From: Candidatus Zixiibacteriota bacterium
GTDB taxonomy: Bacteria; RBG-13-66-14; B26-G2; WVWN01
Direction of reading: 5' to 3'
Length of the DNA stretch: 64,000 nucleotides
Assembly: GCA_030613505.1 (NCBI GenBank)
Contig: JAUWLW010000011.1
Span: forward strand, 3,069-67,068
Shown here piece by piece: positions 16,319-31,175 of this stretch. A program made the position numbers and the translations under genes. The notes beneath the pieces were generated by a model. The model did no database searches. It was given only the letters and a program-made list of their open reading frames with translations, and was not told where the DNA came from. The stretch's first letter is position 1. The number at the start of each line of letters is the position of its first letter.

Positions 16319-17062
16319 ATGCCTAACGGTACCCCCCGCGCCGAGCGGGAAGCAACCGCCGCGGCGGACAAGGCCGGCGAGACGAGGCGAGGCGTCAAAC
16401 GTTGGCTTATCAAAAATTGCCTCGCGGTATTGATCGTCGGCGCCGCGGCCTTCCTCGCCGCGGGCCGGTTGGATTGGTTCTGGGGGTGGGCCTTCGTCGG
16501 CCTTCTGGACGTCAACGTCGTCGTCCTGGCGGTGGTCCTAATCCCGACCAACCCGGAGCTACTCGCCGAGCGGTCGGGCCTCAAGGAGGGAACCAAACGC
16601 TGGGACCTGGTCCTCGCGCCGCTCGTGGCGTACGGGCCGTTATACACGGCGATAGTAGCGGCGCTCGACTTCAGGTGGGGTTGGTCGGGGCCCCTTCCCC
16701 TCTGGCTGCACCTGGCGGCGCTGGTAGTCGTCGTCGCCGGGTGGGCGCTCACGGTCTGGGCCATGGCCGCCAACAAGTTCTTCGCGGCGACGGTGAGGAT
16801 ACAGACGGACCGGGGCCACACGGTAGCCGAAGGCGGCCCGTACCGCTTCGTGCGGCATCCGGGGTACGTAGGCGCGGCCGCGTTCGTCGTCGCGCTGGCG
16901 TTAATGCTGGGGTCGCTGTGGGCGCTAATACCGGCGGCGGTAGCGCTGGCGGCGGTTATCGAGCGGACGGCGCTGGAGGACCGGACGCTTCGGCTCGAGC
17001 TCGACGGGTACGAGGCGTACGCCAAGAAGACGCGATACCGGCTGGTGCCGGGCGTGTGGTAA
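16319..17062 (+). CDS. Isoprenylcysteine-carboxyl-methyltransferase-like membrane methyltransferase
   Basis: A 247-residue protein with about five TM helices (first at 28-48, CLAVLIVGAAAFLAAG). The C-terminal SAM-binding signature of the ICMT/phospholipid-methyltransferase superfamily is clear: GPYRFVRHPGYVGA, then ERTALEDRTLRLELDGYEAYAKKTRYRLVPGVW. Bacterial members methylate lipids or small molecules at the membrane; the substrate cannot be told. It is in an operon with the PhzF-like gene. Confidence 0.8.
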   Translation: MPNGTPRAEREATAAADKAGETRRGVKRWLIKNCLAVLIVGAAAFLAAGRLDWFWGWAFVGLLDVNVVVLAVVLIPTNPELLAERSGLKEGTKRWDLVLAPLVAYGPLYTAIVAALDFRWGWSGPLPLWLHLAALVVVVAGWALTVWAMAANKFFAATVRIQTDRGHTVAEGGPYRFVRHPGYVGAAAFVVALALMLGSLWALIPAAVALAAVIERTALEDRTLRLELDGYEAYAKKTRYRLVPGVW

Positions 17063-17117
17063 CCAGCGGCCAGCGTAGCCCGGCGTGACGACCGTGGAGT
17101 TTAAGCAGAAAAAAATA

Positions 17118-17145
17118 TTGCGAAAGCCGGAAAAGTAGCTATAAT
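17118..17145 (+). promoter_or_regulatory. Promoter of the zinc-ribbon barrel genes
   Basis: TTGCGA (17118-17123), 16 bases, TATAAT (17140-17145), about 50 bp upstream of the ATG at 17196. Confidence 0.55.
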
Positions 17146-17195
17146 ATAACCGGCCGGCCGGGAGGAGGCCCGACGGCTATTTCAAGCGGGAGAAG

Positions 17196-17963
17196 ATGAA
17201 GTTAACGTTATACGTTGCGTTCCTGGAGGCCGCGCTGTCGGGTCCGTTCTGTACTTTCGCCGCGACGGAACCGGCCGAGGCCCTCCCGGCCGAACTTCCG
17301 GAATCGGCCTCCGCCGAAAACGGAACGTCGGCCGACGTCGCCGGTTGGCGCCTCTGCCCGTCCTGCGCGAAGTTGAACGGGCCGGAGGCGTCTTACTGCA
17401 TTTATTGCGGCCGCGACCTCGGGCGGAGCCGACCCGCGACGCGACGCGGCCCGGCGGTCACGTTGGAGCCGAGCCTCAGTTTCCTCTACTCCTTCACCGA
17501 ACTCGGCCCGGGCTTCTCCTTCGCGGCCGAGGGAGGCCGCGTCCGCGAAGAAATTACAATGTTCGCCGTGCTGGACGCCGATTATCGATTACATTACGAC
17601 GGCGTTTTCTTCGCGAGCGGCACCCACTTCTATTTCACTAACTACGCGTTAAGGCCTTACGCCGCCGTCGACGTCAGCCTCTGGAATTACGGAGACGACG
17701 TAATCGCCGAGTTGGGCCCGGGGGCCGGCGTCCGCTACGACTACGGCCGCCGGGGCTCGTTCTTCTACTGCGGCGCGGGCTTCGGCGCGCGCGCGTTCCC
17801 GGCGTGGCGGGAACACGGCCCGGATACCTACGAGTGGGACAGCCAATTTTGGGCGAGGTTCCGCCTGACGCAATACTACGCCGACTTCGCGGGCGTCGCT
17901 TTCGCCGCGCAAACGTTCTTCGGGGGCGCGGTGATAACGGTAGGGCACGCGTTCACTTTCTAA
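17196..17963 (+). CDS. Secreted zinc-ribbon plus beta-barrel protein (first paralog)
   Basis: A 255-residue protein. A hydrophobic N-terminus (LTLYVAFLEAALSGPFCTFA) resembles a signal peptide. A double-CxxC zinc ribbon comes next (LCPSCAKLNGPEASYCIYCG, about 53-72). The rest alternates aromatic strands typical of a small outer-membrane barrel (YAAVDVSLWNYGDDVIAELGPGAGVRYDYG...FFGGAVITVGHAFTF, ending in Phe). Zinc ribbons are usually cytoplasmic, so their place right after an export signal is odd. The next gene is a paralog 17 bp away. Outer-membrane location is inference from strand pattern and terminal Phe. Confidence 0.65.
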   Translation: MKLTLYVAFLEAALSGPFCTFAATEPAEALPAELPESASAENGTSADVAGWRLCPSCAKLNGPEASYCIYCGRDLGRSRPATRRGPAVTLEPSLSFLYSFTELGPGFSFAAEGGRVREEITMFAVLDADYRLHYDGVFFASGTHFYFTNYALRPYAAVDVSLWNYGDDVIAELGPGAGVRYDYGRRGSFFYCGAGFGARAFPAWREHGPDTYEWDSQFWARFRLTQYYADFAGVAFAAQTFFGGAVITVGHAFTF

Positions 17964-17979
17964 CACCCAGGGGGAGCGT

Positions 17980-18789
17980 ATGAAATATTTCCTGGTGCTA
18001 ACGGCCGCGCTGGCGGTTTTTACGGTCGCCGCTCGCGCCGAAACGGCAACCTCGCCGACCGAAGAGACGACTACCTCGCCGGTCGACGTCAGCGGGTACC
18101 GCGTATGCCCGAAATGCAATACGTTGAACACGGCGCAGGCCGATTACTGCATGCGGTGCGGCGCGCAACTCGGCGAGGGCCCGGAGGAAGGGGCGGCTCC
18201 GCCGCCGGCCGCGGTCAAGGCCTTCGCGCTGACGCCGTTCGGCTTCGCGGGCAACTACGAGGCTCTGGGGGGAGGGTTGCGAGGCCGGTTCGACCGCTCG
18301 ACGTGGTCGTACACCCCCTCCTACGCTTACGACGCGCGCGGGCCGGGAGCTTCCTTTTACGATAGCCACCAACATCACGTCCTTCGCAACGACGCTCGCT
18401 TCTACTTCGGCGCCGCCGCGCTCCGGCCTTTCCTGGGCGGCGCCCTGGACGCGAACTACTACTACTCTCGATATGATTACTACCGGTACTACGGACGCGA
18501 AAGACACTCCTTCATCGTATTCTTGGGGTTCGGCGGCGGCCTGGAGTTCAATTACGACCCCCGCGGCTCGTTCTTCGACATCCGCGGCTTCGCCGGCCCG
18601 GCGGCGACGTGGCTCGGCGGCCCCGACAGCAATTCGAGGATAATCACCTATTTTTCGTTCTCCACCGGCAACGTCGTCTACTTCAACCGACACGTCGGCC
18701 TGGACATCCATTTAGCGGCCGACGCCGGCATGGGTTACTACTCGGAAAACCGCGTAATGTTGGAAATCGGGCCGGCCTTCGCGTGGTAG
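17980..18789 (+). CDS. Secreted zinc-ribbon plus beta-barrel protein (second paralog)
   Basis: A 269-residue protein with GGGGGAG upstream of the ATG, a signal peptide (MKYFLVLTAALAVFTVAARA) and a zinc ribbon (VCPKCNTLNTAQADYCMRCG, about 45-64). A barrel-like C-terminal domain rich in Tyr/Phe follows and ends MLEIGPAFAW, with a terminal aromatic typical of outer-membrane barrels. Layout matches the preceding gene (SDVAGWRLCPSC versus VDVSGYRVCPKC), so the two arose by tandem duplication but have diverged strongly in the barrel. Confidence 0.65.
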   Translation: MKYFLVLTAALAVFTVAARAETATSPTEETTTSPVDVSGYRVCPKCNTLNTAQADYCMRCGAQLGEGPEEGAAPPPAAVKAFALTPFGFAGNYEALGGGLRGRFDRSTWSYTPSYAYDARGPGASFYDSHQHHVLRNDARFYFGAAALRPFLGGALDANYYYSRYDYYRYYGRERHSFIVFLGFGGGLEFNYDPRGSFFDIRGFAGPAATWLGGPDSNSRIITYFSFSTGNVVYFNRHVGLDIHLAADAGMGYYSENRVMLEIGPAFAW

Positions 18790-18819
18790 GGCCTTGTATA
18801 AGGCCAAAAACATGAAGTA

Positions 18820-18856
18820 AGCCCGGCCGCCTTGGCGGTACGCCGGGCTCCTTTAC
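18820..18856 (+). terminator. Hairpin terminator after the zinc-ribbon pair
   Basis: AGCCCGGC (18820-18827) pairs with GCCGGGCT (18842-18849) around an inner hairpin (CCGCC...GGCGG). The T-rich CCTTTACTT follows. Confidence 0.55.
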
Positions 18857-18902
18857 TTACGGTCGATACTCCCGCACCCCCCAACCCGAAAGGACCGCAA
18901 CG

Positions 18903-19739
18903 TTGGGAAACGATATAGCCAGGCCACACGGCGGCGACGACGAATACCGTAGGTTGTTGGAGGTGACGCACCCGCTGCGCGAAGGGATAATACGGGACGC
19001 GGTCGCGGCGCTTCGCCTACCGGCCGGGAGTCGGGGCCTGGACGCCGGCTGCGGCGTCGGCTTGCCGGCGATAACTTTGGCCGAGGCCGTCGGTTCCTAA
19101 GGCCGCGTCGTCGGCCTAGACATGTCGGCGCCGCTGCTGGCCCGGGGAGTGGAGCTCGCCCGCGACGCCGGCCTGGCCGAGCGGGTCTCGTTCGAACGGG
19201 GAGACGTCAACGACCTCCCCTTCGAAGACGACGTTTTCGATTGGGCGTGGAGCGCCGATTGCGTCGGGTATTATAGGGAAGCGCCTTTCCCGGCGCTGCG
19301 GGAGCTGGCGCGGGTCGTAAAGCCGCGGGGCACGGTGGCGCTGCTGGCATGGTCGTCGGAGCAGCTGCTGCCGGGGTACCCCGAGTTGGAAGCCCGGCTG
19401 AAAGCGACGGCCGCGGGCCTGGCGCCCTTCGCCCGCGGGATGCCGCCGTCGCGGCACTTCTCGCGCGCGCTGGAATGGTTCGGGGAGTTGGGGCTGGAGG
19501 AAGCGGGGATCAGCACCTTCGCCGGCGACGCGCACGCCCCCTTGACCGACGAGTTCCGGGAGGCGCTGACGGCGTTGCTCGAGATGCGGTGGCCGGGAGC
19601 AGAAGAGGAGTTGACGGCCGAGGAACGGGCGGAATTCAAACGCCTCGCCTACGCCGCGTCGCCGGATTTCGTATTGAACGACCCCGCGTACTACGCTTTC
19701 TTCACGTATTCGATGTTCTGGGGCAAGGTTCCGGCTTAG
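18903..19739 (+). pseudogene. SAM-dependent methyltransferase interrupted by an in-frame TAA
   Basis: A TTG start at 18903 (GAAAGGA upstream) opens a class I methyltransferase whose motif I is GLDAGCGVGLPAITLAEAVG. The frame then hits TAA at 19098-19100 and continues in the same frame with GRVVGLDMSAPLLARGVELA (motif II region) and DLPFEDDVFDWAWSADCVGY (motif III/IV) to a normal stop at 19739. One base change in the TAA codon would restore an uninterrupted 278-residue enzyme. TAA is an ordinary stop elsewhere in the window, so this is probably a nonsense mutation, not recoding. The family resembles UbiE/Methyltransf_11; substrate unknown. Confidence 0.75.
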
Positions 19740-19809
19740 CTTCAACCGCCGTAACCTCGCCCGACGCCGCGCCGGCCTTGCCGCGACGGCATATTCCTGA
19801 ATTTAAAGG

Positions 19810-19838
19810 TTGACTATCGGGCGGCTAACGGTTAAAAT
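19810..19838 (+). promoter_or_regulatory. Promoter of tagged secreted gene 19885
   Basis: TTGACT (19810-19815), 17 bases, TAAAAT (19833-19838), about 45 bp upstream of the ATG. Confidence 0.65.
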
Positions 19839-19884
19839 GCCAAGCTTACTACCCGTCACAGCTATCCCGAAAGGTGGTTAGGCC

Positions 19885-20652
19885 ATGAAGAAACGTTTAT
19901 CGATAGCGCTGGCCGTCGTACTATTGACCGCCGCCGCCGCGGATGCTTATTTAGGACAGATCCAGACGTCCTTCCGTTCGCCGGCGGCCGCCAACACCCG
20001 GGGCCTGGCCCGCGCGGCCGGGTACCTGTACGTGGTGGACGGGACCGACCGGGGCATCGTTTATCGTATGAACCCCGACACAGGCAAGGTGTACGACTGG
20101 TACGTCGTGCAGTGGGACGGCAACAACAGCGGCCTCGCGTTCTCCACTCCCTCGTATCTCTGGGTCGGCTGCATAAGTAACGACACCGTCTACCGGACGC
20201 GCGCTTTTACCGGCAGCATCCATTCGTCGTGGGGGGCCGGGCACGACCCGTTCGGCATCGCGCCGCGGAGCACCGGCGACAGCGGTAAGGGGACGACCCA
20301 CATCTTCACTACCGACAACCTGCCCGACTACTTGTTCACCCACCGCCTGAACGGCAACGTCTTAAACTCCTTTCCGCTGGGCACGCGCTCCCGTTACGAC
20401 TGCGCGTTCGATTGGCGCAACAACCTCGTGTGGCGGGGTGGCGGCGATTACATCTACGCCCACACGCCCACCGGCTCGATCGCGGCGTCCTTCGAGTCGC
20501 CCGCCGGATCGCCCCGGGGGCTGGCATATAACAACTACCGGCTGTGGATCGCGTGCACCGGCAACAGCTACATCTATCGGGTCCACTGCCCGAGGGACTT
20601 CTTCGCCGTGGAGCCGGCGTCGGTGGGCCGCGTGAAAGCGCTGTTCCGCTGA
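19885..20652 (+). CDS. Secreted propeller-like protein with C-terminal SVGRVKALFR tag
   Basis: A 255-residue protein with a signal peptide (KKRLSIALAVVLLTAAAADA). The body has propeller-type strands (RAAGYLYVVDGTDRGIVYRMNPDTG, TPSYLWVGCISNDTVYRTRAFTG, NYRLWIACTGNSYIYRVHCPRD) and ends FAVEPASVGRVKALFR, the shared tag. It is related in design to 7896-8720, which is also plus-strand cargo within the phage. It has its own promoter and a strong terminator and closes the plus-strand island. It is presumably exported to the cell surface; the partner is unknown. Confidence 0.75.
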   Translation: MKKRLSIALAVVLLTAAAADAYLGQIQTSFRSPAAANTRGLARAAGYLYVVDGTDRGIVYRMNPDTGKVYDWYVVQWDGNNSGLAFSTPSYLWVGCISNDTVYRTRAFTGSIHSSWGAGHDPFGIAPRSTGDSGKGTTHIFTTDNLPDYLFTHRLNGNVLNSFPLGTRSRYDCAFDWRNNLVWRGGGDYIYAHTPTGSIAASFESPAGSPRGLAYNNYRLWIACTGNSYIYRVHCPRDFFAVEPASVGRVKALFR

Positions 20653-20746: not shown

Positions 20747-21388
20747 TTACCCCTCGAGTTGCGAAAGTCGCACCTCGCCGGCCCGGGCGCGGTAGGCGGT
20801 CTGGATGTCGGCGTCGACGCCCGGGGCTACGCTCACCTCGACGTTGACGTTGGGGGAGGCGACGTTTACGTTGGGGGCGCCGAAGTCGCCCGGGCCGAAG
20901 CCGTAGCCCGACCGGCCGCCGGACAGCAGCGCGCGCATCCGCTCCTGCGTAACGACGAACTCCGGCTCGCGCTCGCCGACTAAGGCGAGGGTGGGGCTAC
21001 GGACCAGGCCCTCGTGTTGGAAGCCGAGGAGGCTCGTTATCATGCCGAGGCCAGGGATCATGCTGAGGATGGAGCTGATGCCCTCGGTGACGAGGTTGGT
21101 GGCCGCGGTGGTGGCCATCTGCCCGCCTAAGTCCGCCATCGCGCCCTTCACGTCCCCCGACTTGAACCCCTGGACCAGGCTTGACGAGATCATACCCGAG
21201 ACGCGCTCTACGGAAGCTTTTTCGGCTTTTTTGTCTCTTCCGTCTCCTTCGCCTCCGCCTTCTTTTTTCGCACCTTTACCCTTTAACGGCTCCTCTTGCA
21301 GGCGCTCCAATTGCTCGCCGAGGGTCCCGAGACCCTCCGTATCCTCAACCTTTAGCTCGCAGATTATTTCGTGTTGTTCTTGGTCCAT
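20747..21388 (-). CDS. Very short tail tape-measure-like protein
   Basis: I start at ATG 21388 (GGGGGGAGTAAC upstream), giving 213 residues. The C-terminal half carries the usual tape-measure ending: helical Ala/Gly-rich MATTAATNLVTEGISSILSM, then FQHEGLVRSPTLALVGEREPEFVVTQERM, matching the 'GG.V..PTLALVGE.GPE.V.P' motif of phage tape measures. Typical tape measures are many hundreds of residues long; this one is far shorter yet has a normal-looking start. The last 23 residues recur at the end of the chimeric gene 28754-28987. It lies between the cargo operon (21.5-26.7 kb) and the plus-strand island. Confidence 0.7.
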   Translation of the reverse strand: MDQEQHEIICELKVEDTEGLGTLGEQLERLQEEPLKGKGAKKEGGGEGDGRDKKAEKASVERVSGMISSSLVQGFKSGDVKGAMADLGGQMATTAATNLVTEGISSILSMIPGLGMITSLLGFQHEGLVRSPTLALVGEREPEFVVTQERMRALLSGGRSGYGFGPGDFGAPNVNVASPNVNVEVSVAPGVDADIQTAYRARAGEVRLSQLEG

Positions 21389-21470
21389 GTTACTCCCCCC
21401 AATCGGGAATGGTGGTAATAAAACCATCGTATAGCTGAAGGCCGTTTTTGTACGGACGATTTATATATCC

Positions 21471-21545
21471 TTAAACCCTCTGCGCCATTATTTCCGCGAC
21501 TTTGGCAGCAACCGGGGCCGCAAGCGGACCCGGTTTCTTTTTATA
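21471..21545 (-). pseudogene. Remnant of the caspase-like family N-terminal motif
   Basis: In the 176-bp gap the minus strand encodes YKKKPGPLAAPVAAKVAEIM followed by AQRV and a stop (21471-21473). This matches the GPLAAPLAPVIGEIMGQK motif near the N-terminus of the caspase-like genes at 22907 and 25950. No start codon precedes it in frame (TGA lies upstream), so it is a broken copy. Nothing else is seen in the gap. Confidence 0.5.
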
Positions 21546-21564
21546 CCGCTTTCATGGCGGGACT

Positions 21565-22905
21565 TTAATACCGTAAGAAGGGAGACGGCTTCAACTCAAC
21601 TAATCCCCCCAACGGTTGGTCGACCCTGTTGAGGTAATTCGAGCTATCGGCATCGAATTCGCCGCACCGGAGCCAAGATACGAGACGGGTTTCCTCCATA
21701 TAGTTGCGGCCCCGGGCTTTAAAGAGAGGCGTCAAGGTTCGCGTCTCGACCTCAAGCAGTTGGAATTCGACGACCTCCTCCTCGTGGGAGGCCCCCGGTA
21801 TATAACGGGCAAGCACGACGCCTAAACCCTCCGGCGGTTGGAGGGTCGTAACCACCCACCCCGCGGGAACCTTGTAGAAAGGACGCTCCAGGTCGACGCG
21901 GAAGCCGGGGCGGTCCAACGGGGCGAGGTATAAATAGCGGCTATGGGCGCGGTCTCCTTTGGCGGGAACGGAGATCAGGCACTGGCGTTCGCCGTTCAAA
22001 GGGATGACGTCTTCCGTCCCCACGTCCTCCCAGAGGTCCACCAACGGCAGAACGTCCTCCTTCCCCGCTTCTTTACGGATCTCCACCAAACGTTCGACGC
22101 AGCTACTCCGCCTCGGCCTGCGGCCCACCCAAATGCCGCGGCGAAGTCCGCCGAGTACGTAGAAGTAGTTTCGGGAAACGGCCACGATGGGATAACCAGG
22201 TGTGCCCGGGAATAAGTGCCAACGGCAAGGGGGGCGCGTCTCGACGACGGCCACGTCGGACGGGGGGGCTCCGTAGTCCCCATGCCTCCGACCCTTAACG
22301 AAACGCATCACTAATTCCCCGGCGCCGTCGTCCCAATACATACTGCCAATAGAAGCCAGGGTATTAAAATCCAACGTCGCAGCGTACGTGAAAGGACCGC
22401 GTTCATTTTTACGGGTCAGTACGCCGACGTCCGGCCGGCTGAACTTAAACGGCCAGAAGAAGAAGAAGTGGCCATCACGGGACATGACTAAGTCTTGAGC
22501 CCGCCAGATGAATACGGCATACCCCACGCGCCGCCGCGACTCCTTAGTAAGGTTATATTCCATCAGCGCCGTAGTGAATTCCGGGAGGTCTACGGCCCCC
22601 ACCCTCGCCAACGGCTCATCCGTCTCGACGCCGCGTTTATCGATAGGCCTGCGAACGCCCCGCCGGCGGGTGACCACAGCGTAGTATATGAGGTCGTCGC
22701 CGGCTTCGGGCGCCGGGGCGTAGTAGCCGGCCATTTGGAGGCGCGTAACAATTATACGCGGGAGCGGAAGGCTAGCCGGAGCACCGCCGGGCGGCGGTTC
22801 TTTATCTAGGCCGGTACATACAACCAGGGTAAAGGCCAAGGCCAAAAGGCCGGCCGTACGTAATAAGCGGTTTCCCGAACAGGGCCTATGTGTCAAACTA
22901 ACCAC
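21565..22905 (-). CDS. Lipoprotein with propeller-like body, last gene of the caspase-like/NHL operon
   Basis: A 446-residue protein with a GTG start one base after the stop of the caspase-like gene, implying coupled translation. The N-terminal signal has a lipobox-like LVVC (LLRTAGLLALAFTLVVCTGLDKEPPPG). The rest is beta-rich with recurring 'YYFYVLGG', 'FFFFWPFKFSRPD', 'YLYLAPLDRPGF' strands, suggesting a propeller unrelated to NHL. No catalytic motif is recognised. As the distal gene of the operon at 21.5-26.7 kb it may be a membrane-attached partner of the NHL receptors. Function unknown. Confidence 0.65.
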   Translation of the reverse strand: MVSLTHRPCSGNRLLRTAGLLALAFTLVVCTGLDKEPPPGGAPASLPLPRIIVTRLQMAGYYAPAPEAGDDLIYYAVVTRRRGVRRPIDKRGVETDEPLARVGAVDLPEFTTALMEYNLTKESRRRVGYAVFIWRAQDLVMSRDGHFFFFWPFKFSRPDVGVLTRKNERGPFTYAATLDFNTLASIGSMYWDDGAGELVMRFVKGRRHGDYGAPPSDVAVVETRPPCRWHLFPGTPGYPIVAVSRNYFYVLGGLRRGIWVGRRPRRSSCVERLVEIRKEAGKEDVLPLVDLWEDVGTEDVIPLNGERQCLISVPAKGDRAHSRYLYLAPLDRPGFRVDLERPFYKVPAGWVVTTLQPPEGLGVVLARYIPGASHEEEVVEFQLLEVETRTLTPLFKARGRNYMEETRLVSWLRCGEFDADSSNYLNRVDQPLGGLVELKPSPFLRY

Positions 22906-22906
22906 G

Positions 22907-23611
22907 TTAATCTTCTATCGCTTTCCTAATATATTCCGGTATGTCCCTACGCGGTATACAATCCCCTCCGGTCCCGGGGATTACGGTCAACGTAAAATAA
23001 CCCTCGGCGCCCTCGCCCTCTTCTTCGCGCTTTCGCCGTTTATCATCCCACTCCCTTTGCCTCTGCTCGCACGAGAAAATCCAAACCTCGCCGCCGGGTT
23101 TTAATAATTTCTCGACCTGGGCGAATAATTCACTCGGAGCGACGTCGCTATAGGGATCGTAATAACCGGGTTCGGCGTTTTTAGGGCGAGCCCTTTCTAA
23201 CGCGGGCCCGTAACCGGTGACGTTCCCTTTCTCGTCGAAAATAGGCTCCCCGCCACCGTGGACCAGGAGCGCTATGCGATCGAACTTCGGGGCCTCCTCC
23301 AACGTTTTACCTTCGAACTCTCGTTGCTTTTTGTACTCCTCCACTAACTCCTCTGGGGTAAACCAACCTTTTTTGAATTCATAAAAAAAGATTTCTTTAC
23401 CTTCCGGTTTCATCTCCCTCCGCATATAGCTTTTAACCGCGTCAAATTCCGGGTACGTCTCCATAATGTTATGGTCGCCAACGAACAACGTCCGCTTCGT
23501 GATTTCCGGTTGTACCACCTCCTCCGCCTTCTGCCCCATGATTTCGCCTATTACCGGCGCAAGCGGGGCCGCAAGCGGGCCCGATTTCTCCTTGAGCCGG
23601 CCTTGCGCCAC
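22907..23611 (-). CDS. Caspase-like (clan CD-type) protein, second copy in operon
   Basis: A 234-residue protein with GTG start and no signal peptide, so probably cytoplasmic. The N-terminal helical motif SGPLAAPLAPVIGEIMGQK is shared with the 25950 gene. Next comes the strand KRTLFVGDH, then FDRIALLVHGGG with a candidate catalytic His, SELFAQVEKLLKPGGEVWIF ending in SCEQ with a candidate catalytic Cys, and TVIPGTGGD. The order strand-HG...strand-C is that of caspase/CHAT/DUF4347-type folds. Three such proteins in the window conserve the His, the Cys and the following PG.G. A protease role is inference from the dyad pattern only. Confidence 0.6.
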   Translation of the reverse strand: MAQGRLKEKSGPLAAPLAPVIGEIMGQKAEEVVQPEITKRTLFVGDHNIMETYPEFDAVKSYMRREMKPEGKEIFFYEFKKGWFTPEELVEEYKKQREFEGKTLEEAPKFDRIALLVHGGGEPIFDEKGNVTGYGPALERARPKNAEPGYYDPYSDVAPSELFAQVEKLLKPGGEVWIFSCEQRQREWDDKRRKREEEGEGAEGYFTLTVIPGTGGDCIPRRDIPEYIRKAIED

Positions 23612-23622
23612 CGTCTCTACTC

Positions 23623-24705
23623 TTAACGCGTCGTTGTCCCTTTTCGCCGTTTAAGGAAACGGCGCGCGATTAGCGTAATTAAAAAAACGATTATTAAGGC
23701 AGTTACGCCAAAAACGCCATACCGTGCAACGTGGAAAATCCGACTAGGCTTAAAACAACTTATACGCTGATTATAGCGGTCCGAAATGAATACGGTCCCA
23801 CCCGGGGCCACGGCGATACCCGGGCCGTAGACCGTACTACGGTTTTCTGGTAAACCGAAAGAGCCCAAGAACGAGCCGGCCGCGGTGAAATAATCGAAAC
23901 GACGGCCAACCCCTACGCGAGGATTTTCGAAAATGTAGACCTTGCCGTCCGTGCCGACGGCGATACCGCGGGGCTTCTTATACCTACTGTACCTACACCC
24001 CTCGGGCCCCCACCTCCCTAGATATGAACCTTCGGGGGTAAAGTACTGTACGCCGCCGAAGTCGTAATCTAAAACGTAAACGGTACCGTCCGGCCCTACT
24101 GCTAAATATAACGCTAAACCAAATTCCCCTTCCCCGGTCCCGTACGGACCCCATTCGGCGAGTAGAGTACCGTTAACGTCATAACGTTGTATACGCCGCC
24201 CCGTCGAAGCGTAGATATCGCCGTTGGGCCCAACAGCCAACGGTCCTACTTCAGCTTCCCACTCCGATATCAATCGGCCCCGCGGCGTGAATTCGTACAC
24301 GCGGCTTGCGGAGTGGTCGGCGGCGAAAACGGCTCCACCGCGCGCGATAGCTAAGCCGAAATACCCGAAACGAAACGGGGAAATCGGCATTTCCCATTCC
24401 CCGAGAAAAGACCCCGCACTCGAAAAGTATTGCACGTGACCCTCGGATGCGACGTATACGTCGCCCGTTGGCGCAACGACTACCGGTATCGGCGGAGCGC
24501 CGGTCCAACAACCGAAATCCTCTACCGGCCATTCGCCCGCTTTAACGTAATCCGGCGGGTTGTTCACCTTTTTAATAAAAGATACGATTTTACGAAAACG
24601 GCTTTCGTCAGGCGTTTCGTCGATACGAGCCGACGCCACTCCCAAGGAGCAAACGGCCACCGTTATTACTGCGAAAATTACTTTTTTATAAGGAATTGAA
24701 TACAT
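23623..24705 (-). CDS. Membrane-anchored NHL six-bladed propeller (receptor-like)
   Basis: I start at ATG 24705 (MYSIPYKKVIFAVITVAVCS), which opens a signal peptide. Six NHL blades follow (IQRYDVNGTLLAEWGP, VQYFTPEGSYLGRWGP and others). After the last blade a single TM helix (GVFGVTALIIVFLITLIARR) and a short basic tail KRRKGTTTR give a type-I topology: propeller outside, tail in the cytoplasm. Only 11 bp separate it from the caspase-like gene downstream, and a second gene of the same design lies upstream. A sensor feeding the caspase-like proteins is inference from topology and operon structure. Confidence 0.75.
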   Translation of the reverse strand: MYSIPYKKVIFAVITVAVCSLGVASARIDETPDESRFRKIVSFIKKVNNPPDYVKAGEWPVEDFGCWTGAPPIPVVVAPTGDVYVASEGHVQYFSSAGSFLGEWEMPISPFRFGYFGLAIARGGAVFAADHSASRVYEFTPRGRLISEWEAEVGPLAVGPNGDIYASTGRRIQRYDVNGTLLAEWGPYGTGEGEFGLALYLAVGPDGTVYVLDYDFGGVQYFTPEGSYLGRWGPEGCRYSRYKKPRGIAVGTDGKVYIFENPRVGVGRRFDYFTAAGSFLGSFGLPENRSTVYGPGIAVAPGGTVFISDRYNQRISCFKPSRIFHVARYGVFGVTALIIVFLITLIARRFLKRRKGTTTR

Positions 24706-24822
24706 ACTTAACGTCCCAACATTGGGCCTATGAAAGGCTTCATGTCGCGGTCGAAATCGCATTCTTCCCCTTCACCGGGCCAAACGATGGCCCTAAAAGG
24801 GCGGCCACTTTCCGCTACGGCT

Positions 24823-25926
24823 TCATCCCATTCCTCCTGTTCGCCGCGTTTTAATTACCCGGCATATTATAAAGGAACCTACCAAGCTCGCAACGAAAAC
24901 GCCGGCAGCGACGATTACCCACACGTATACGCGTTTATTAACCGAACGCTTGAACGTACGCACTTTCAAATCCCTACCGTCGGCAACGTAAACGTCGCCC
25001 GAAGGAGCCGCCGCTACCCCCCAGAAGAAATCGCCCCGGCGCGGCGGCGCGGTATACTCCAGCACGCCTTTTAACCGGCCGCGGCGGTCGAAGTATTCCA
25101 CTTTATCCTTTGACATATCGGAAACGAATACCTCTCCCGCACGCGCAACGGCAACGGCGTTGGGGTATTTGAACTCGCTCGGGCCGGTGCCCTCTTCGCC
25201 CCACGCGCCGAGGAACGAACCGTCGGCGCTGAAATACTGCACGCGCTCGTTCAACGTGTCGGTAACGTATACCGCTTCCCCGTCCGGCGCTATTGCGATA
25301 CTTTCGGGATAATGGAATTTACCCTCGGCTGCCCCGTACGAACCCCATTTACCCAAAAAGGAACCCGTACTCGAAAAATACTGAACCCTCTCGTTGAGGG
25401 TATCGGCGACGTAAACTCGGCCGGTCGAATCGACTGCCAAACCCGCCGGGCTGCCGAATTGCCCTTCGCCGGTCCCGCGACTACCCCAGCCGCCCAAGTA
25501 AACGCCGTCCGACGAGAAGTAAATCACCGCATCTCCGCACAGCGCGTAAACGTTGCCGTCGGGCCCGCCGGCAATACCCCGCGGCACGAACGTATACCTC
25601 GCCAACCCTACCGTACCGGGCGGCGGCGGCGGGACAACGTACCATTCATCAAGGGAGTTCCCCGTCGCGTCGTAACGGCGTATCCGCTGCGTTAACGGGT
25701 CGGCGACGTAGACATCGCCGTCCGGGCCTACGGCTATGGGGATCGGCGGCGCTAATATCATGCCACACCGGTGGAAACCTTCAAGGTCCCACTCGCCGGC
25801 GTATTCGTACCAGGTCGCAGGACCCGGCTTCAAGCGTTCGATGATATCCCGTTTGCCGCTACTGCACCCGGAGAAAATAATGAGGATAGATAAAAACGCG
25901 GAAAAAAAAACGAGGTTTTTACGCAC
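24823..25926 (-). CDS. Membrane-anchored NHL six-bladed propeller lipoprotein (receptor-like)
   Basis: A 367-residue protein with GTG start after GGAAGGAGG and a lipoprotein signal peptide with lipobox FSGC (LVFFSAFLSILIIFSGCSSG). Six NHL blades follow (IRRYDATGNSLDEWYV, VQYFSSTGSFLGKWGS, VEYFDRRGRLKGVLEY), then a TM helix (VYVWVIVAAGVFVASLVGSF) and a basic tail CRVIKTRRTGGMG. Both ends are therefore membrane-attached, with the propeller outside. It lies 23 bp downstream of the first caspase-like gene and 117 bp upstream of the second receptor-like gene. It may bind a surface or phage ligand; none is evident. Confidence 0.75.
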   Translation of the reverse strand: MRKNLVFFSAFLSILIIFSGCSSGKRDIIERLKPGPATWYEYAGEWDLEGFHRCGMILAPPIPIAVGPDGDVYVADPLTQRIRRYDATGNSLDEWYVVPPPPPGTVGLARYTFVPRGIAGGPDGNVYALCGDAVIYFSSDGVYLGGWGSRGTGEGQFGSPAGLAVDSTGRVYVADTLNERVQYFSSTGSFLGKWGSYGAAEGKFHYPESIAIAPDGEAVYVTDTLNERVQYFSADGSFLGAWGEEGTGPSEFKYPNAVAVARAGEVFVSDMSKDKVEYFDRRGRLKGVLEYTAPPRRGDFFWGVAAAPSGDVYVADGRDLKVRTFKRSVNKRVYVWVIVAAGVFVASLVGSFIICRVIKTRRTGGMG

Positions 25927-25949
25927 GGGGCGTACCTCCTTCCTGGTTT

Positions 25950-26672
25950 TTACAAACCCAATAAGTCGTCGATAAACGGAGCCGCGTCCTCTTCGTAACG
26001 GAAATCTCCCCCGCCTCCGGGGTAAATAATCACGTCGAAGTTACAACCGGCCTTTTCCAGTTCTTCCTCCCATTCGCTTAGGTACTGGCCGCAAACTAAG
26101 AGCCATAAATCGCCTCCGGGTTTAAGGTATTTCGCAACTACCCTGAACAATTCTCTCGGTTCTACCGGATACAAATTCGCGCCCCTGGAGAGGGCTGGCT
26201 CGGCCGGCAAGCTATCTTCTTCGTACACGATCCTTGCCCCGTGCACCATTATACCTATCCGGTCGAAAACCACCTTATCATCCGTAGGCTGACCTTGTCT
26301 ACTCGACCATTCTTCGTAGTAACTATCCATAAGTGTGGGTTCGAAGTATGAATGGAATTTTACGAACACGACCGTTTTATCGGGCCACGTGTTTTCGTAT
26401 ATCTTCCGTTTATCTCCTAATACCCTTTCGTCCGGATATAAGTCCGCATCGTAGACTATAAGCGTACGGCCGGCCAAATAGTCAACGGCCACCTCTTCCG
26501 CCGCCTTCTGCCCCATGATCTCGCCAAGCACGGGCGCGAGCGGGGCCGCAACCGGACCGAGTATTTCCGGAAGTTGAGCTTTAACGGCCTGCGTTACGGC
26601 AGCCGATACGTCCCTTGCGGCATTACCAGTAGTCGTTTGGACCACTACTTTTATCTTTTTTACCTTCCCCAC
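25950..26672 (-). CDS. Caspase-like (clan CD-type) protein, first gene of operon
   Basis: I start at GTG 26672 because the longer frame (TTG 26723) would overlap a consensus promoter. This gives 240 residues and no signal peptide. It has the N-terminal helical motif LGPVAAPLAPVLGEIMGQK, strand RTLIVYD, FDRIGIMVHGAR (candidate His), ELFRVVAKYLKPGGDLWLLV followed by CGQ (candidate Cys), and IIYPGGGGD. The His and Cys positions align with 22907-23611 and 30086-30640. As first gene behind its own promoter it is expressed independently of phage late transcription. Protease function is inference. Confidence 0.6.
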   Translation of the reverse strand: MGKVKKIKVVVQTTTGNAARDVSAAVTQAVKAQLPEILGPVAAPLAPVLGEIMGQKAAEEVAVDYLAGRTLIVYDADLYPDERVLGDKRKIYENTWPDKTVVFVKFHSYFEPTLMDSYYEEWSSRQGQPTDDKVVFDRIGIMVHGARIVYEEDSLPAEPALSRGANLYPVEPRELFRVVAKYLKPGGDLWLLVCGQYLSEWEEELEKAGCNFDVIIYPGGGGDFRYEEDAAPFIDDLLGL

Positions 26673-26694
26673 TTTATAAATAATCCCCTTACAT

Positions 26695-26723
26695 ATTATA
26701 CCCGCTATTCGTACGGCCGTCAA
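26695..26723 (-). promoter_or_regulatory. Near-consensus promoter of the caspase-like/NHL operon
   Basis: Minus strand TTGACG (26718-26723), 17 bases, TATAAT (26695-26700). It lies immediately after the frameshifted chaperone frame ends at 26724, so cargo transcription starts exactly at the phage/cargo junction. Confidence 0.75.
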
Positions 26724-27427
26724 TTAACCCAAACGCTCGCGTCGCACGCGGCGCCGGGTATCTTCAACCGCCGCTTCCTCCTCCGCGGTTAAATTACACA
26801 GGCACTCCACCACGCCGTAGAACTTGGCCGCGTTCCACGCGAGGACGTCGCGAGGATCGAGGCCCAGCCGCCTCCCCACCTCCACGACCAGCTCCGTTAA
26901 GCCGCAGTACCTTGCCGGCCGGCCTCCTCTTTTTTTTTAAACATCACGCGCTCCAGCAAGCCGAATAAGGCCGGCGCGAGCGACGTCACCACGACGTCGG
27001 CTCGAGGAATCCGCTTCCGGAGGAGCTCGAGCGCCGCGGCCTCATCCACCTCCGGTACGACGTACTTTTTACGCCGCAACCAAGCGAACAACCCCCGCGG
27101 CCGCTGGTGGAGAAGCCAGAACGCTCGCGCCAATATCGTTACGTACTCGTGGATGTCGGTTAGCTCCGGCCCCAGCCGCTCCAGCTCCCGCACCACGGCC
27201 TCGAACACCTCCAGCGACGGCACCGGTATCGTGACGCGCAGCCGCTCGTCCTCGTAGACGTAGACCTGCTCGTCGGCGAGGCGCTTGAGCTCCACGCCCA
27301 CCCGGCCCGAGCCGGGCATCCCCGGCGCGTAGCGCGTTATCATCTCTTGCGCCTCGGCCGGAAGCTCCGACGACGGCCTTACGTCGGCGCCCAGCCGCTT
27401 CAGCTCCTCCTTCAGCTCCTCGCTCAT
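26724..27427 (-). CDS. Tail assembly chaperone, -1 frameshift fusion product
   Basis: The chaperone gene starting at 27427 contains TTT AAA AAA AAA G (26929-26941) ten codons before its stop. The -1 frame is open from this run to a stop at 26724 and encodes about 65 more residues (RGGRPARYCGLTELVVEVGR ... DVLAWNAAKFYGVVECLCNL ... RRRVRRERLG). Long-tailed phages such as lambda (G/GT) make two chaperone forms by a -1 slip at such a run. The heptamer A AAA AAA G fits. The -1 frame also has TAA immediately before the run, so it is reachable only by slippage. No mass data exist here; the call is by analogy. Confidence 0.65.
26897..27427 (-). CDS. Tail assembly chaperone, unshifted form
   Basis: I start at ATG 27427, which overlaps the tail-tube stop as ATGA; upstream sequence in the same frame is a shadow of the tube gene. 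The 176-residue product (MSEELKEELKRLGADVRPSS ... FKKKEEAGRQGTAA) is largely helical and acidic to neutral. Helices such as VFEAVVRELERLGPELTDIH and YVTILARAFWLLHQRP fit a gpG-type chaperone that binds the tape measure during tail assembly. The position between tail tube and (originally) tape measure is the standard one. A slippery A-run near its end allows the longer product. Confidence 0.65.
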   Translation of the reverse strand: MSEELKEELKRLGADVRPSSELPAEAQEMITRYAPGMPGSGRVGVELKRLADEQVYVYEDERLRVTIPVPSLEVFEAVVRELERLGPELTDIHEYVTILARAFWLLHQRPRGLFAWLRRKKYVVPEVDEAAALELLRKRIPRADVVVTSLAPALFGLLERVMFKKKEEAGRQGTAA

Positions 27428-28182
27428 CAGTCGAAGTAGATGACCAGGTCGCCGGAGGCGTCGTTGTTGACGCGGAACTCGCGCGTTAAGGCGTCGTGGC
27501 CCGCGCGCGTAGCGCCCAGCTTCAGCGCGCCGGTCCACACGATATCCTTGGCGTGGATCGTCATGCGGCCCAGCGTATTGGTCTCCAGGAACCGCTCGAT
27601 GACGAGATACCCCGCCCAACTTGACGGCGTATCCGTAGGTCCTATCGTGACCTTGACGCCGGAGGTGTTGGTATACAGGTACGTCGTCTTGACCGCCTTG
27701 TCGGCGTCCGCGGAGTGGAACGTCAGCACGCCGCTCGCGACCTGGACCTCGCCCGACCCCGACGGCGCGCCGGAGACGACCTGGAAGTACGACTTGGCCG
27801 CGCCCGAGCCGGTATACACGGAGCCGTGGCCTATGGAGTCGTCGCCGCAGTTGGCGGAGTTGGTCAGCGTCACGTCGTACGGCGAGCCGGACGGGACCGT
27901 CCCCGCCTCCTCCTTGGCCACCGATATGCCCTGCGAGGCGGTGGTCGAGCCGCCGATCAGCGCCGCGACCAGGTTGGCGTCGGAGTAGTGCCAGCCGATG
28001 GTCCCGCCGAACCCGCCTATCAGCGCGTGGTACGCGTTCTGGTTGTTCCAGTTCCCCTTCGGGATCTCGATCTCCTTGGTGTCGACGTTGAAGTTTATCT
28101 CGGCGTAGCCCAGGAACGGGTACTTGTTCGTGGTGTCGAACACCATCCCCTGGCCCACCAGCGCACCCAGTGCGAGTGCCAT
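27427..28182 (-). CDS. Major tail tube protein-like
   Basis: A 251-residue protein, ATG at 28182 with GGGGGGATAG upstream. It is beta-rich with LGYAEINFNVDTKEIEIPKG, GGFGGTIGWHYSDANLVAAL, VTIGPTDTPSSWAGYLVIER and the late GRMTIHAKDIVWTGALKLGA, giving the 'tube' pattern of alternating strands with a C-terminal 'FRVNNDASGDLVIYFD'. Placed after the tail completion gene and before the chaperone, this is the tail-tube slot. No sheath gene is seen, supporting a non-contractile tail. Confidence 0.65.
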   Translation of the reverse strand: MALALGALVGQGMVFDTTNKYPFLGYAEINFNVDTKEIEIPKGNWNNQNAYHALIGGFGGTIGWHYSDANLVAALIGGSTTASQGISVAKEEAGTVPSGSPYDVTLTNSANCGDDSIGHGSVYTGSGAAKSYFQVVSGAPSGSGEVQVASGVLTFHSADADKAVKTTYLYTNTSGVKVTIGPTDTPSSWAGYLVIERFLETNTLGRMTIHAKDIVWTGALKLGATRAGHDALTREFRVNNDASGDLVIYFD

Positions 28183-28243: not shown

Positions 28244-28681
28244 TTATACGCCGCCCGGGACGAGGCCGGTCGAGAAGTCGAACCGCACCTCGACCGTTAC
28301 GTTCTCGGGCTTCTGCACCACCTTGGTGGCGCTGGCGGCGACGTCGTACCAGGGCGGCCCGTCGCCGGAGATGACCGGCAGGCCGCGCCGGACGCCCTCC
28401 CGCACCGTCTCCACCAGGTGGCTCGCCAGGTCGCCGGCGTTCTCGTGGGCGTCCTCCTTCGAGCCGTGCTGGATGGCGGCGCGCACCGAGGCGTGGCACA
28501 CGGCCCACCCCAGCCGGTCGTACGTGTCGGCGCCCATCTCGACCTCGAACGTGGGCTGCGTGAACCGGCCTATGGGCGCGGCCTTCTCGTAGACGTAGCT
28601 CGAGCCGTACTCGTCCTTCAACAGCTGGACGAGGTAGCGCTTCACGCGCTCGCCCGGGCTCTCTCCTATCGTTACGGCCAT
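28244..28681 (-). CDS. Tail completion / head-tail joining protein (Mu gp37-like position)
   Basis: A 145-residue protein (MAVTIGESPGERVKRYLVQLLKDEYG ... FSTGLVPGGV). The opening helix with VKRYLVQLLKDEYGSSYVYEKA and the later ETVREGVRRGLPV and VTVEVRFDF strands resemble tail terminator proteins, which cap the tube. It sits directly between the gp36-like genes and the tail-tube gene, the usual slot for such a protein. The exact family is not recognised; role from order. Confidence 0.5.
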   Translation of the reverse strand: MAVTIGESPGERVKRYLVQLLKDEYGSSYVYEKAAPIGRFTQPTFEVEMGADTYDRLGWAVCHASVRAAIQHGSKEDAHENAGDLASHLVETVREGVRRGLPVISGDGPPWYDVAASATKVVQKPENVTVEVRFDFSTGLVPGGV

Positions 28682-28753: not shown

Positions 28754-28987
28754 CTAGCCCTCGAGCTGGGAGAGGCGGGCCTCGCCGGCTCGCGCCCGGT
28801 AGGCGGTCTGGATGTCGGCGTCAACGCCGGGGTCGGAAAGGTCGTAGCGGTCGCGCAGGACCGCCTCTATCTCGGCCTCCGCCCGGTCGCGGTTGGCGGT
28901 TACGCGCGCGTCCGCGCACAGGTCGCTCGTAAGCAGCGGATACTCCGTCCGCACGTCGCTTACGTTCGCCGGAGTCGTCCAGGCCAT
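28754..28987 (-). pseudogene. Chimeric gp36-like fragment fused to the tape-measure C-terminus
   Basis: A 77-residue frame. Residues 1-54 (MAWTTPANVSDVRTEYPLLT ... AVLRDRYDLSDPG) are almost identical to the start of the gp36-like connector genes at 30717, 37425 and 41035. The last 23 (VDADIQTAYRARAGEARLSQ LEG) are almost identical to the end of the tape measure at 20747. The junction falls at the shared Pro-Gly codons. It has a start and stop and could be translated, but lacks two-thirds of the connector. It marks a recombination scar at the right edge of the caspase-like/NHL cassette. Confidence 0.75.
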
Positions 28988-29114: not shown

Positions 29115-30089
29115 TTACTTATCGTCCGCGGCGACGGGGCGGAAGTATTGGACGCGGTGGTTGCCGGCGTCGGCAACGTAGACGGTGCCGTATGCGGCGA
29201 CGGCTACGGTAATGGGGCCGGAGAATTCGCCTTCGCCTTTACCGTACGAACCGAATTGACCCAGGAAAGAACCCTCGCGGGAGAAGTATTGTACCCGTTC
29301 GTTGCCGACGTCTGCGATGAAGATGGTACCGTTGGAACCTACGGCGACGCCGCTCGGGAATTCGAATTTACCCTCCCCCGACCCGTGCCGTCCGAAAGAT
29401 GCGACACACGAACCGTCGGAAGTAAACCGCTTAACTACGCATTCGTACGTATCCGCGACTAAAAATCCGCCTTCGGAGGTGGACGCCAAGGCAGCCGGGT
29501 AGAAACGGCCGCTTTTTTCTCCCACGACGGCCGGACGAGACTTGAAGATTATCGACCCGGCTTCATCATAACATGTTACGAACGGCGACGCGCCATCACC
29601 CACTAAAACCCGGCCACCAGCGGTTACGGTAAGAGAGGGCGGCATACCGTAAACGTACAGCCTTTCCCTAGGGTTGGCGTCTCGGTAAGGCCACTCGTTT
29701 ATGAACGAGCCGGCGGCGGTAAACCTTTTCACGTTGCGGGTACGCGCGTCGGCAACGAAAACCGAACCGTCGATACCCGCCGCTAAACATACCGGTTCTA
29801 ACCCCGGGGGATTTCCCCCTTCTTCGGGAACCTGAGGATCGAGTTGCCATTTAGTTATGAAAGAACCTGAACCCGAAAAAACCTGTACCGTTCGTGCCGC
29901 CTCGTCAATCGCGTAAACACTACCTTGCGGTCCGACGGCAATACCGACCAACTCGAGGAATTGCCCGTCGCCCGAGCCCTTTTCGCCCCAACCGCCGGCG
30001 TAAACGTACCTCTGGGGGGCCGCGGGTTTGGGGCTGCACGTTACGGACAAAGCAACCGCTAATAACGTTATTGAAAATAGGCGCGTCAT
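29115..30089 (-). CDS. Secreted NHL six-bladed propeller paired with a caspase-like gene
   Basis: A 324-residue protein with signal peptide (MTRLFSITLLAVALSVTCSP; a Cys after the hydrophobic core may be lipidated, though the lipobox is imperfect). Six blades follow, from VQVFSGSGSFITKWQL to the terminal VQYFRPVAADDK. No C-terminal TM and no SLGRVKALFR tag. The ATG overlaps the stop of the upstream caspase-like gene by 4 bp, so the two are translationally coupled. The 3' end is followed by the 75-bp element. The XDDK ending recurs in the cargo propellers at 34726, 35671 and 39282. Confidence 0.75.
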   Translation of the reverse strand: MTRLFSITLLAVALSVTCSPKPAAPQRYVYAGGWGEKGSGDGQFLELVGIAVGPQGSVYAIDEAARTVQVFSGSGSFITKWQLDPQVPEEGGNPPGLEPVCLAAGIDGSVFVADARTRNVKRFTAAGSFINEWPYRDANPRERLYVYGMPPSLTVTAGGRVLVGDGASPFVTCYDEAGSIIFKSRPAVVGEKSGRFYPAALASTSEGGFLVADTYECVVKRFTSDGSCVASFGRHGSGEGKFEFPSGVAVGSNGTIFIADVGNERVQYFSREGSFLGQFGSYGKGEGEFSGPITVAVAAYGTVYVADAGNHRVQYFRPVAADDK

Positions 30090-30640
30090 TTCCCGAATAA
30101 ACTACCAAACCATTGTAATAAGTTAGGCGGTTCTTCCTCAACTATAAACTTACCCCTAAGTTCCGGGTATTTGAAACCTCGACCCGTACCCGGCCATACT
30201 CTCAACTTCCGTGTGAACCCGCAGGATATCGCCCATTCCCGCCACTTGTCTATTTTTTGGTAACACGCGCATATATACAACGTTCCATCACCCGCGATAT
30301 AAGGCGCGGTATTTCGGAATATCTCGTCAGGACTTATTAATTCTAGTTGCGGGGGCCAATGCCGCAATAAACCGGGTCCCGGGTAAACGCCATGATGGTA
30401 AATTATAATATGGTCGAACCGTCGCCAACCGCTAACACCTTGATAAGTCCGCCACACGAAAGTATTTTGGATCGTACTACCGATGTCGTCGGGTTCGGTC
30501 GGAACGAAATAGGCAAAATCCAATATGACATCATTCGCCTCGGCCAGGTCGAGATAAGTTTCCTTATCCCCCTCTACGTCGCCGGCTTGGCGACTACCAA
30601 GGGCTGTGACTATACACGCGAATTCCGTGCGATCGCCCAT
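30086..30640 (-). CDS. Caspase-like protein, short form
   Basis: A 184-residue protein without signal peptide and without the GPLAAPLAP N-terminal motif. It aligns with the two larger family members: strand EFACIVTALGS, FDHIIIYHHGVY (candidate catalytic His), DEIFRNTAPYIAGDGTLYICACYQK (candidate Cys), RVWPGTGRGF. It is coupled by a 4-bp overlap to the NHL gene 29115. The His, Cys and PG.G positions are conserved although the rest has diverged strongly, which supports functional importance. Whether it is a protease is untested. Confidence 0.55.
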   Translation of the reverse strand: MGDRTEFACIVTALGSRQAGDVEGDKETYLDLAEANDVILDFAYFVPTEPDDIGSTIQNTFVWRTYQGVSGWRRFDHIIIYHHGVYPGPGLLRHWPPQLELISPDEIFRNTAPYIAGDGTLYICACYQKIDKWREWAISCGFTRKLRVWPGTGRGFKYPELRGKFIVEEEPPNLLQWFGSLFGK

Positions 30641-30716: not shown

Positions 30717-31175
30717 TTAATCGTCGTCGTTGAATGGGAATCCCGGCCCGGGATGTTTATTAAGGCCGAAACTACTAAAGGCGCTCTTTCCCAGGTCGAA
30801 ATTCCCCACCGTCGGCGTAGGGATGTTCCTCGATACTTTTAAAGAAAGCTTTACCTTGCCTCGAAGAACGTCCGCTTTAAATACTTCCCACTCGTGCCAG
30901 TACGTCGAAGCCGCCGTCCGCCCCTCCCCGGTCCACCCCTGCTCGCCGTACGCCGAGTTGATGCAGTGGTAGAGCGTCAGCGCCAGGCAGATGCGCCACA
31001 CGTACTTGTCGGCGCCGGGGTCCGTCAGGTCGTAGCGGTCGCGCAGGACCGCCTCTATCTCCGCCTCCGCCCGGTCGCGGTTGGCGGTAACTCGCGCGTC
31101 CGCGCACAGGTCGCTCGTAAGCAGCGGATACTCCGTCCGGACGTCGCTTACGTTCACGGGAGTCGTCCAGGCCAT
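30717..31175 (-). CDS. gp36-like head-tail connector (probable original copy)
   Basis: A 152-residue protein, MAWTTPVNVSDVRTEYPLLT, with AEIEAVLRDRYDLTDPGADK and the helical YVWRICLALTLYHCINSAYG. The arrangement resembles the Mu gp36/DUF1320 connector family: helical bundle with an early 'YPLL' segment. It follows the gp35-like gene (start/stop overlap at 31175) behind the capsid gene, the standard place, so I treat this as the ancestral copy. Near-identical copies occur at 37425 and 41035, and a truncated one at 28754. It would form the ring joining head and tail. Confidence 0.7.
   Translation of the reverse strand: MAWTTPVNVSDVRTEYPLLTSDLCADARVTANRDRAEAEIEAVLRDRYDLTDPGADKYVWRICLALTLYHCINSAYGEQGWTGEGRTAASTYWHEWEVFKADVLRGKVKLSLKVSRNIPTPTVGNFDLGKSAFSSFGLNKHPGPGFPFNDDD

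Follow-up and report, generated by a model that had tools for sequence, protein, structure and literature searches.

Peptidase-like genes paired with exported propeller genes in a GTA-like locus of Candidatus Coatesbacteria

Introduction

The Tse1/Tsi1 pair of the type VI secretion system (T6SS) is a solved precedent for a leaderless Cys-His hydrolase that shares a bicistronic operon with its periplasmic inhibitor, a partial beta-propeller (PMC3391265). Contractile particles carry tape-measure-related effectors whose functional domains can be swapped, and an immunity pair is described for one of them (PMC13277306). In Caulobacter, the peptidase domains of LypABC are required for lysis mediated by a gene transfer agent (GTA) (PMC13236601). 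Here we analyse a 64,000-nucleotide stretch of a Candidatus Coatesbacteria genome (the window), in which a phage-derived, Mu-like gene cluster carries repeated cassettes of a peptidase-like gene and a gene for an exported partner, usually an NHL propeller. A first-pass annotation had singled out five genes at 21565-26723 as a phage-borne operon of two caspase-like proteins, two membrane-anchored NHL propellers and a lipoprotein. These genes turn out to be a real and unusual object, and a local piece of a wider cassette pattern.

The locus resembles Tse1/Tsi1 in that a leaderless hydrolase is followed by an exported, propeller-type partner in one operon, in the setting of a phage-related machine. 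It differs in its vehicle, which would be a phage-type particle with a head, in its M15-, HExxH- or caspase-like enzymes, and in its partners, which are putative inhibitors and either full NHL proteins or members of other families. The Sle1-type effectors of actinobacterial contractile injection systems (CIS) are alike in their phage-derived particle, their link to the tape measure, their swappable domains and, in one case, an immunity pair; at the locus described here, however, no sheath is seen and the peptidase-like proteins are separate from the tape measure. The GTAs RcGTA and CcGTA are resident clusters of terminase, portal, protease, head and short tape-measure genes that are maintained by the host under purifying selection. 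The Coatesbacteria cluster shares these traits but is of a Mu-like lineage in which DNA packaging and transfer are putative, and such cassettes are not known from GTAs. LypABC, a CARD-NLR-like system, likewise ties peptidases to a GTA, but its peptidases are trypsin-like serine enzymes accompanied by ATPase and CARD domains, and nothing similar was recognised at the Coatesbacteria locus.

The extra structural gene copies that accompany the cassettes are reminiscent of orphan VgrG or Hcp genes. Islands of this type, like polymorphic toxins, share with our locus the extra carrier copy, the common N-terminus with a variable C-terminus, the partner gene and the remnants, whereas the candidate carriers here are the phage neck gene gp36 and tape-measure genes, and marker domains such as PAAR, Rhs or HINT were not seen. 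No description of this gene set was found in the literature searched.

Results

The recurrent unit of the locus consists of a structural gene copy, a gene for a peptidase-like protein (X) and a gene for an exported partner. The window contains three copies and a fragment of a gp36-like head-tail connector gene, two pairs of M15-like and NHL genes, and several pairs of caspase-like and NHL genes (coordinates are on the minus strand unless stated otherwise). One gp36-like gene occupies the canonical position (30717-31175). Copy 1 (41035-41496) and copy 2 (37425-37892) lie upstream of the M15-like peptidase genes M15_1 (40328-41026) and M15_2 (36718-37416), respectively, which match each other at 84%. 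The partner of M15_1 is the exported propeller NHLa (39282-40214), and those of M15_2 are the exported propellers NHLb1 and NHLb2 (34726-36603). The caspase-like gene caspC (30086-30640) overlaps by 4 nt with its partner NHLc (29115-30089), an exported propeller that has no transmembrane (TM) helix. An exported non-NHL protein, p356 (38017-39087), belongs to the same family as two partners in a sister genome, p352 and p354. The M15, HExxH and p356-family labels come from motifs and alignments of the sequences rather than from library matches. NHL genes of the window that lie outside the phage-derived cluster do not form X-NHL pairs.

The same arrangement recurs in two sister species (G001 and G003). 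The three species together hold 13 intact X genes of caspase-like (His/Cys), M15-like and HExxH types, and an exported partner follows directly on the same strand in 12 of the 13 cases. G001 carries gp36 – X261 (M15-like) – NHL – gp37 and TMP – X277 (M15-like) – NHL – X243 (caspase-like) – NHL – protease, where TMP denotes the tape-measure protein gene. The cassettes of G003 include gp36 – X296 (HExxH) – NHL – TMP – gp37, gp36 – X291 – p352 – TMP, a chaperone fragment – X283 – p354 – TMP, and X288 (M15-like) – NHL; both X291 and X283 contain VGHG and AC motifs. Polymorphic effector-immunity systems place the partner directly after the effector, in the compartment where the effector would act, and the 12 pairs follow this order if X acts on the export side.

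X277 and X243 share residues 1-62 (45% identity, E 3e-11) and nothing afterwards, so a common N-terminus precedes two different catalytic domains. In the window, casp1 and casp4, which are 41% identical, have the N-terminal block GPxAAPLAPVxGEIMGQK in common. The DNA of this block is 84% identical, far above the rest of the genes (34.7% amino acid identity over 219 aa), and the block is also present in a remnant. A common N-terminus with exchanged C-terminal domains is the pattern of polymorphic effectors; X277/X243 and the casp1/casp4 block conform to it, with one swap shown. By eye it was tempting to read the N-terminal module of X as a tape-measure N-terminus, for which profile support was nil. 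In G001, fragments of the protease gene start precede each X-NHL cassette (L125:497-598 and 2597-2662); they are boundary repeats like D6 and D8 in the window. Taken together, the gene order points to effector-immunity-like cassettes of a phage-derived particle, which we tentatively put forward as the best explanation of the locus.

The five genes of the first-pass annotation are indeed tightly packed on the minus strand: casp1 (gene 1, 25950-26723), NHL2 (gene 2, 24823-25926; Pfam NHL E 2.5e-24), NHL3 (gene 3, 23623-24762; Pfam NHL E 2.1e-14), casp4 (gene 4, 22907-23611) and gene 5 (21565-22905). NHL2 is the partner of casp1, and gene 5, after a gap of 1 nt, that of casp4. The shared N-terminus of casp1 and casp4 was confirmed, with an Asp-x-Ile..His-Gly motif and a strand-end Cys kept in both, as were the NHL assignment, hydrophobic N-terminal segment, C-terminal TM-like helix and basic tail of NHL2 and NHL3. 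Gene 5 has the export-type N-terminus expected of the lipoprotein it was taken for, but its lipobox (LVVC) is non-canonical and weak, and library searches gave no family match. Missing from that annotation were the intact caspC copy with its own overlapping NHL gene, two casp remnants, and, in the head module, the three intact gp36-like copies and fragment, the two M15-like/NHL cassettes and a gp36-TMP fusion fragment. The remnant between NHL2 and NHL3 is the C-terminal part of a further casp copy (about 24714-24836; tblastn 37% over 41 aa, E 1.3e-4), and the one downstream of gene 5 is an N-terminal part (PGPLAAPVAAKVAEIMAQRV*, 21450-21548).

A promoter-like site, TTGACG-17-TATAAT (26695-26723), is found where it had been reported, starting at the end of the second chaperone frame. 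This predicted site is the best promoter-like match of the region, at 11/12 of a sigma-70-like consensus that may not be the one used in this phylum. If the promoter is used, casp1 cannot start at TTG 26723; the next candidate, GTG 26645, is the likely start, and His161 and Cys211 follow the numbering of the longer open reading frame (ORF). The near-consensus site ahead of casp1 suggests that the operon may be expressed apart from the structural genes.

None of the X proteins examined has a TM-like or export-signal segment, while their partners are on the export side. A C-terminal TM helix is missing from NHLa, NHLb1, NHLb2, NHLc and the partners in G003, and some partners have no TM helix at all. 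It had been proposed that the propellers sense an outside signal and pass it inward to cytoplasmic caspase-like proteins, which would act in superinfection exclusion or abortive infection. The C-terminal TM helix and basic tail of NHL2 and NHL3 are in line with this proposal, and caspase-like proteases occur in bacterial immunity. As a general scheme it is unlikely, however, because most partners have no TM helix to pass a signal and X can be replaced by HExxH or M15-like proteins, the latter with a substrate outside the cytoplasm. In addition, PADLOC gave only marginal, chance-level matches to unrelated models (E 0.007-0.02), and the locus is not an ordinary prophage, as described below. We consider the sensor scheme very improbable. 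The position of the partners, the different catalytic domains behind the common N-terminus of X277 and X243, and the casp1/casp4 block turned the interpretation from sensor to effector.

The casp-type X proteins are probably clan CD-like, as far as their sequences indicate. The alignment of casp1, casp4 and caspC has 26 invariant columns, including H161, G162 and C211 (casp1 numbering). The order expected of clan CD, a putative catalytic His within His-Gly followed by a Cys, is conserved in the three window copies and in X283 and X291 of G003. A motif written after the proteins had been seen, [FY]D.I.[hydrophobic]..HG, occurs in exactly these five among 895 proteins examined, all of them products of X-slot genes. 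When the five were aligned unguided, 8 columns were invariant, of which three are the His, Gly and Cys; in a control, 3 of 300 random proteins aligned all three residues. X243 of G001 is matched by the casp profile (E 0.0013 among 934 proteins) and aligns with caspC from His-Gly to Cys (E 0.005). Pattern and tblastn searches of IMG/VR, GTDB contigs, phage records and 386 genomes found no casp homologs; X243 had escaped these searches and was found only via the M15 profile. One match, in G250, falls within a TPR/membrane protein and appears to be spurious.

Two AlphaFold models, built from two alignments, are of low confidence (pLDDT 53 and 51). In these models the His ends strand 3 and the Cys ends strand 4, which would be the strand order of clan CD. 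Comparison of both with the PDB (VIA/Foldseek) returned generic Rossmann-like folds, and the clan CD chain 3gcd (Z 3.9) is among ties and proves nothing. The X genes have no Pfam, NCBIfam or PDB-sequence match, and the PDB and family libraries gave nothing usable. Comparisons with hhalign of casp against small DUF4347 and C14 profiles, and against X283 and X291 as possible homologs, were not significant. Around its Cys, X283 itself is similar to DUF4347 (44% over 18 columns, E 0.0066, in a single comparison). What links these proteins to DUF4347 and other caspase-hemoglobinase-fold proteins is a His-Gly that closes one strand and a Cys that closes the following one; what separates them is that there is no Pfam match, no significant profile over the domain and no confident fold here. 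Because both models are of low confidence and the profile tests are not significant, a caspase fold is not proven. The claim of caspase-like proteins thus stands for His/Cys proteins beside exported propellers, with relatives in G001 and G003, and is undecided as to the fold. The outgroup G005 encodes, outside its GTA-like cluster, a DUF4347 protein that stands alone, is 183 aa long and has a membrane segment at its N-terminus (L064, G005:C9:103347-103697).

M15_1 and M15_2 are the sole matches of the M15-like profile in this genome (G000), as might be expected if X helped the particle-making cell to lyse, acting as an M15-like endolysin or a caspase-like death protease that the partners restrain or localise. 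The LypABC peptidases are needed for GTA lysis in Caulobacter (PMC13236601), and in G005 an M15-like gene adjoins a holin-like gene where the structural cluster ends. Several features are unexpected of a lysis module, however: the many divergent X copies per genome, the domain-swapped N-termini and the remnants. The cassettes lie beside structural gene copies, and no NLR, CARD or ATPase gene was recognised in the cluster. Producer lysis or cell death is in our view unlikely.

M15-like enzymes cut peptidoglycan, and the cassettes flank tail and neck genes. X proteins could accordingly be imagined as particle-borne peptidases that open the recipient envelope for DNA entry, with the propellers as uptake receptors or adhesins. 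This would leave unexplained why three unrelated enzyme types occur in several copies each, with one exported partner per X, and we regard such an entry role as distinctly improbable.

The cluster that hosts the cassettes encodes a terminase large subunit (42788-44092), a Mu-like portal (41503-42801; PF06074 E 9.4e-29), a head maturation protease/scaffold (33044-34618), a head decoration-like protein (32544-32990), a Mu gpT-like major head protein (31568-32488; PF10124 E 7.5e-32), a gp37-like tail terminator assigned by position (28244-28681), a tail tube protein (27427-28182), a tail assembly chaperone with a -1 frame extension (26727-27619) and a short tape-measure-like protein of 226 aa (20747-21427), the Coatesbacteria counterpart of which weakly matches TMP PHROGs. 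As in GTAs, phage-type head, packaging and tail genes thus lie in one cluster. Inside it lies a host PhzF-family gene (15506-16300, plus strand), whose location is shared by G001 and G003. A row of exported DUF6923-like propeller genes (16319-20652, plus strand) separates PhzF from the tape-measure gene, which is on the other strand; the row has a counterpart in G001:C10. Elsewhere in the window, FG-GAP proteins with Por_Secre_tail sorting domains are encoded at 49913-52015 and 61898-63841; these domains suggest that Coatesbacteria have a type IX secretion system.

The window comes from a genome of 2.86 Mb, to which Ca. Coatesbacteria bin961 (CP070633.1) and WVWN01000042.1, the latter labelled Zixiibacteriota, are closely related among the entries of named collections. 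Each of the four genomes in the genus has a gpT gene, as do 13 of 14 in the phylum; identity is 92-93% within the genus and 24-28% elsewhere in the phylum. Terminase identity within the genus is 91-95%, and the internal PhzF gene and NHL neighbours are common to the genus. The ratio of non-synonymous to synonymous substitution rates (dN/dS) is about 0.14-0.25 for head genes and 0.44 for p124. The cassettes and duplicated genes are constrained as well: dN/dS is 0.08-0.11 for the gp36 copies, 0.27 for the TMP copies, 0.19 for M15_1/M15_2 and 0.16 for NHLa/NHLb1. Both vertical inheritance and constraint, two traits of GTAs, are therefore seen within the genus.

The locus had been called a prophage. 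As a simple reading this fails, with gpT and TerL common to the genus beside the same neighbours and host genes inside the cluster. The window genes scanned, which do not comprise every ORF, include no replication, integration or lysogeny module, and no MuA/MuB-type gene was recognised among them. The scanned genes include no transposase or integrase, and the distribution is not the sporadic one of an active Mu-like prophage. Given the shared terminase, PhzF and NHL neighbours and the low dN/dS, we treat the locus as a domesticated, Mu-like and GTA-like particle locus of this Ca. Coatesbacteria genus.

A single origin of a phylum-wide GTA was suspected from the presence of gpT in 13 of 14 genomes. 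In the gpT tree, genomes group by family but this genus stays separate from the others in the phylum, which gives a common phylum-wide origin no support. A compact cluster with no terminase nearby is found in the outgroups G004 and G005; in G004 it ends near rpsB and tsf. In Armatimonadota metagenome-assembled genomes (L051-L053), gpT is 55-60% identical to that of Coatesbacteria families f2-f4, and is closer to f2-f4 than these are to the present genus. A TerL search of IMG/VR identified one related phage contig, L088 (IMGVR_UViG_3300010289_000008; TerL 56%, gpT 39%), which has replication genes and, in the part seen, no cassettes. It is a candidate relative of the free phage ancestor. Scans of IMG/VR with gp36 and TMP found no relatives.

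It is also conceivable that a decaying prophage in an NHL-rich region gathered copies of host NHL genes along with orphan ORFs, and that these do not function together. NHL genes are abundant in the genome, casp remnants are present, and an ORF at 28757-28987 fuses the gp36 N-terminus (first 51-56 residues) to the TMP C-terminus (last ~25), which we read as a recombination scar. A parallel to this scar in G001 is a TMP/tail-tube fusion (L045:6324-7307). Such neutral accretion is at odds with the dN/dS of 0.08-0.3 for nearly all structural genes compared (p124 being the outlier), the cassettes and the copies, and with the X-partner order, which is kept across species despite different X and partner families. 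We judge it to be quite improbable.

Discussion

Our results can be accommodated in the following model of effector-immunity-like cassettes. A Mu-like phage would have been domesticated into a resident particle-making locus that kept its terminase, portal, protease, head, neck and short tail. This locus would then serve as a platform for cassettes of an extra structural gene copy, such as gp36 or the tape measure, followed by X and its exported partner. X would be a leaderless peptidase-like protein made in the cytoplasm, with a caspase-like His/Cys pair, an M15-like peptidoglycan peptidase domain or an HExxH metallopeptidase domain. Its N-terminal segment may mediate loading on or in the particle, which would carry X to the envelope of competitors or of related cells. 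In the producer itself, X would be neutralised in the periplasm or at the surface by the exported partner, in most cases an NHL propeller. The cassettes would spread by segmental duplication, swap their C-terminal enzymes and leave remnants behind. The cassettes themselves, their shared N-termini with different C-termini, the export pattern, the structural copies, the purifying selection and the presence throughout the genus are observed; loading, delivery, toxicity and inhibition are what we infer from them.

Several points weigh against this model. We know of no GTA that delivers protein effectors. NHL proteins form a huge family in this genome (150 scored matches, 378 candidates), often in tandem arrays of repeats, and also flank the locus; adjacency to an NHL gene is weak evidence by itself because the family is so large here. 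Gene 5 and the p356-family partners are not established as propellers. One G003 cassette has the NHL-X order (gp36 – NHL – X345 (M15-like) – TMP), and the 62-residue N-terminal module of X277 and X243 is undetectable in other X proteins. The M15-like gene of G005 stands beside a fibre gene as well as the holin-like gene, as an endolysin would.

It is possible, though doubtful, that a headed GTA-like particle doubles as an effector weapon, combining a carrier copy, an exchangeable peptidase effector that includes a new caspase-like lineage, and an exported beta-propeller as immunity protein. GTA-like loci and effector-immunity cassettes are each of a known kind; their combination would count as a new kind if effector delivery were demonstrated.

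If the model is correct, it would link GTAs, phage tails and polymorphic toxins through a resident particle that packages DNA and, in addition, bears diversified peptidase effectors, each matched by an exported inhibitor. NHL propellers, which abound in Coatesbacteria genomes and are poorly understood, would gain a testable role, and the proteins involved in bacterial conflict would include an orphan caspase-like lineage. Even without delivery, a phage-derived locus has been kept across an uncultured genus, repeatedly duplicating its neck and tape-measure genes together with peptidase-propeller pairs.

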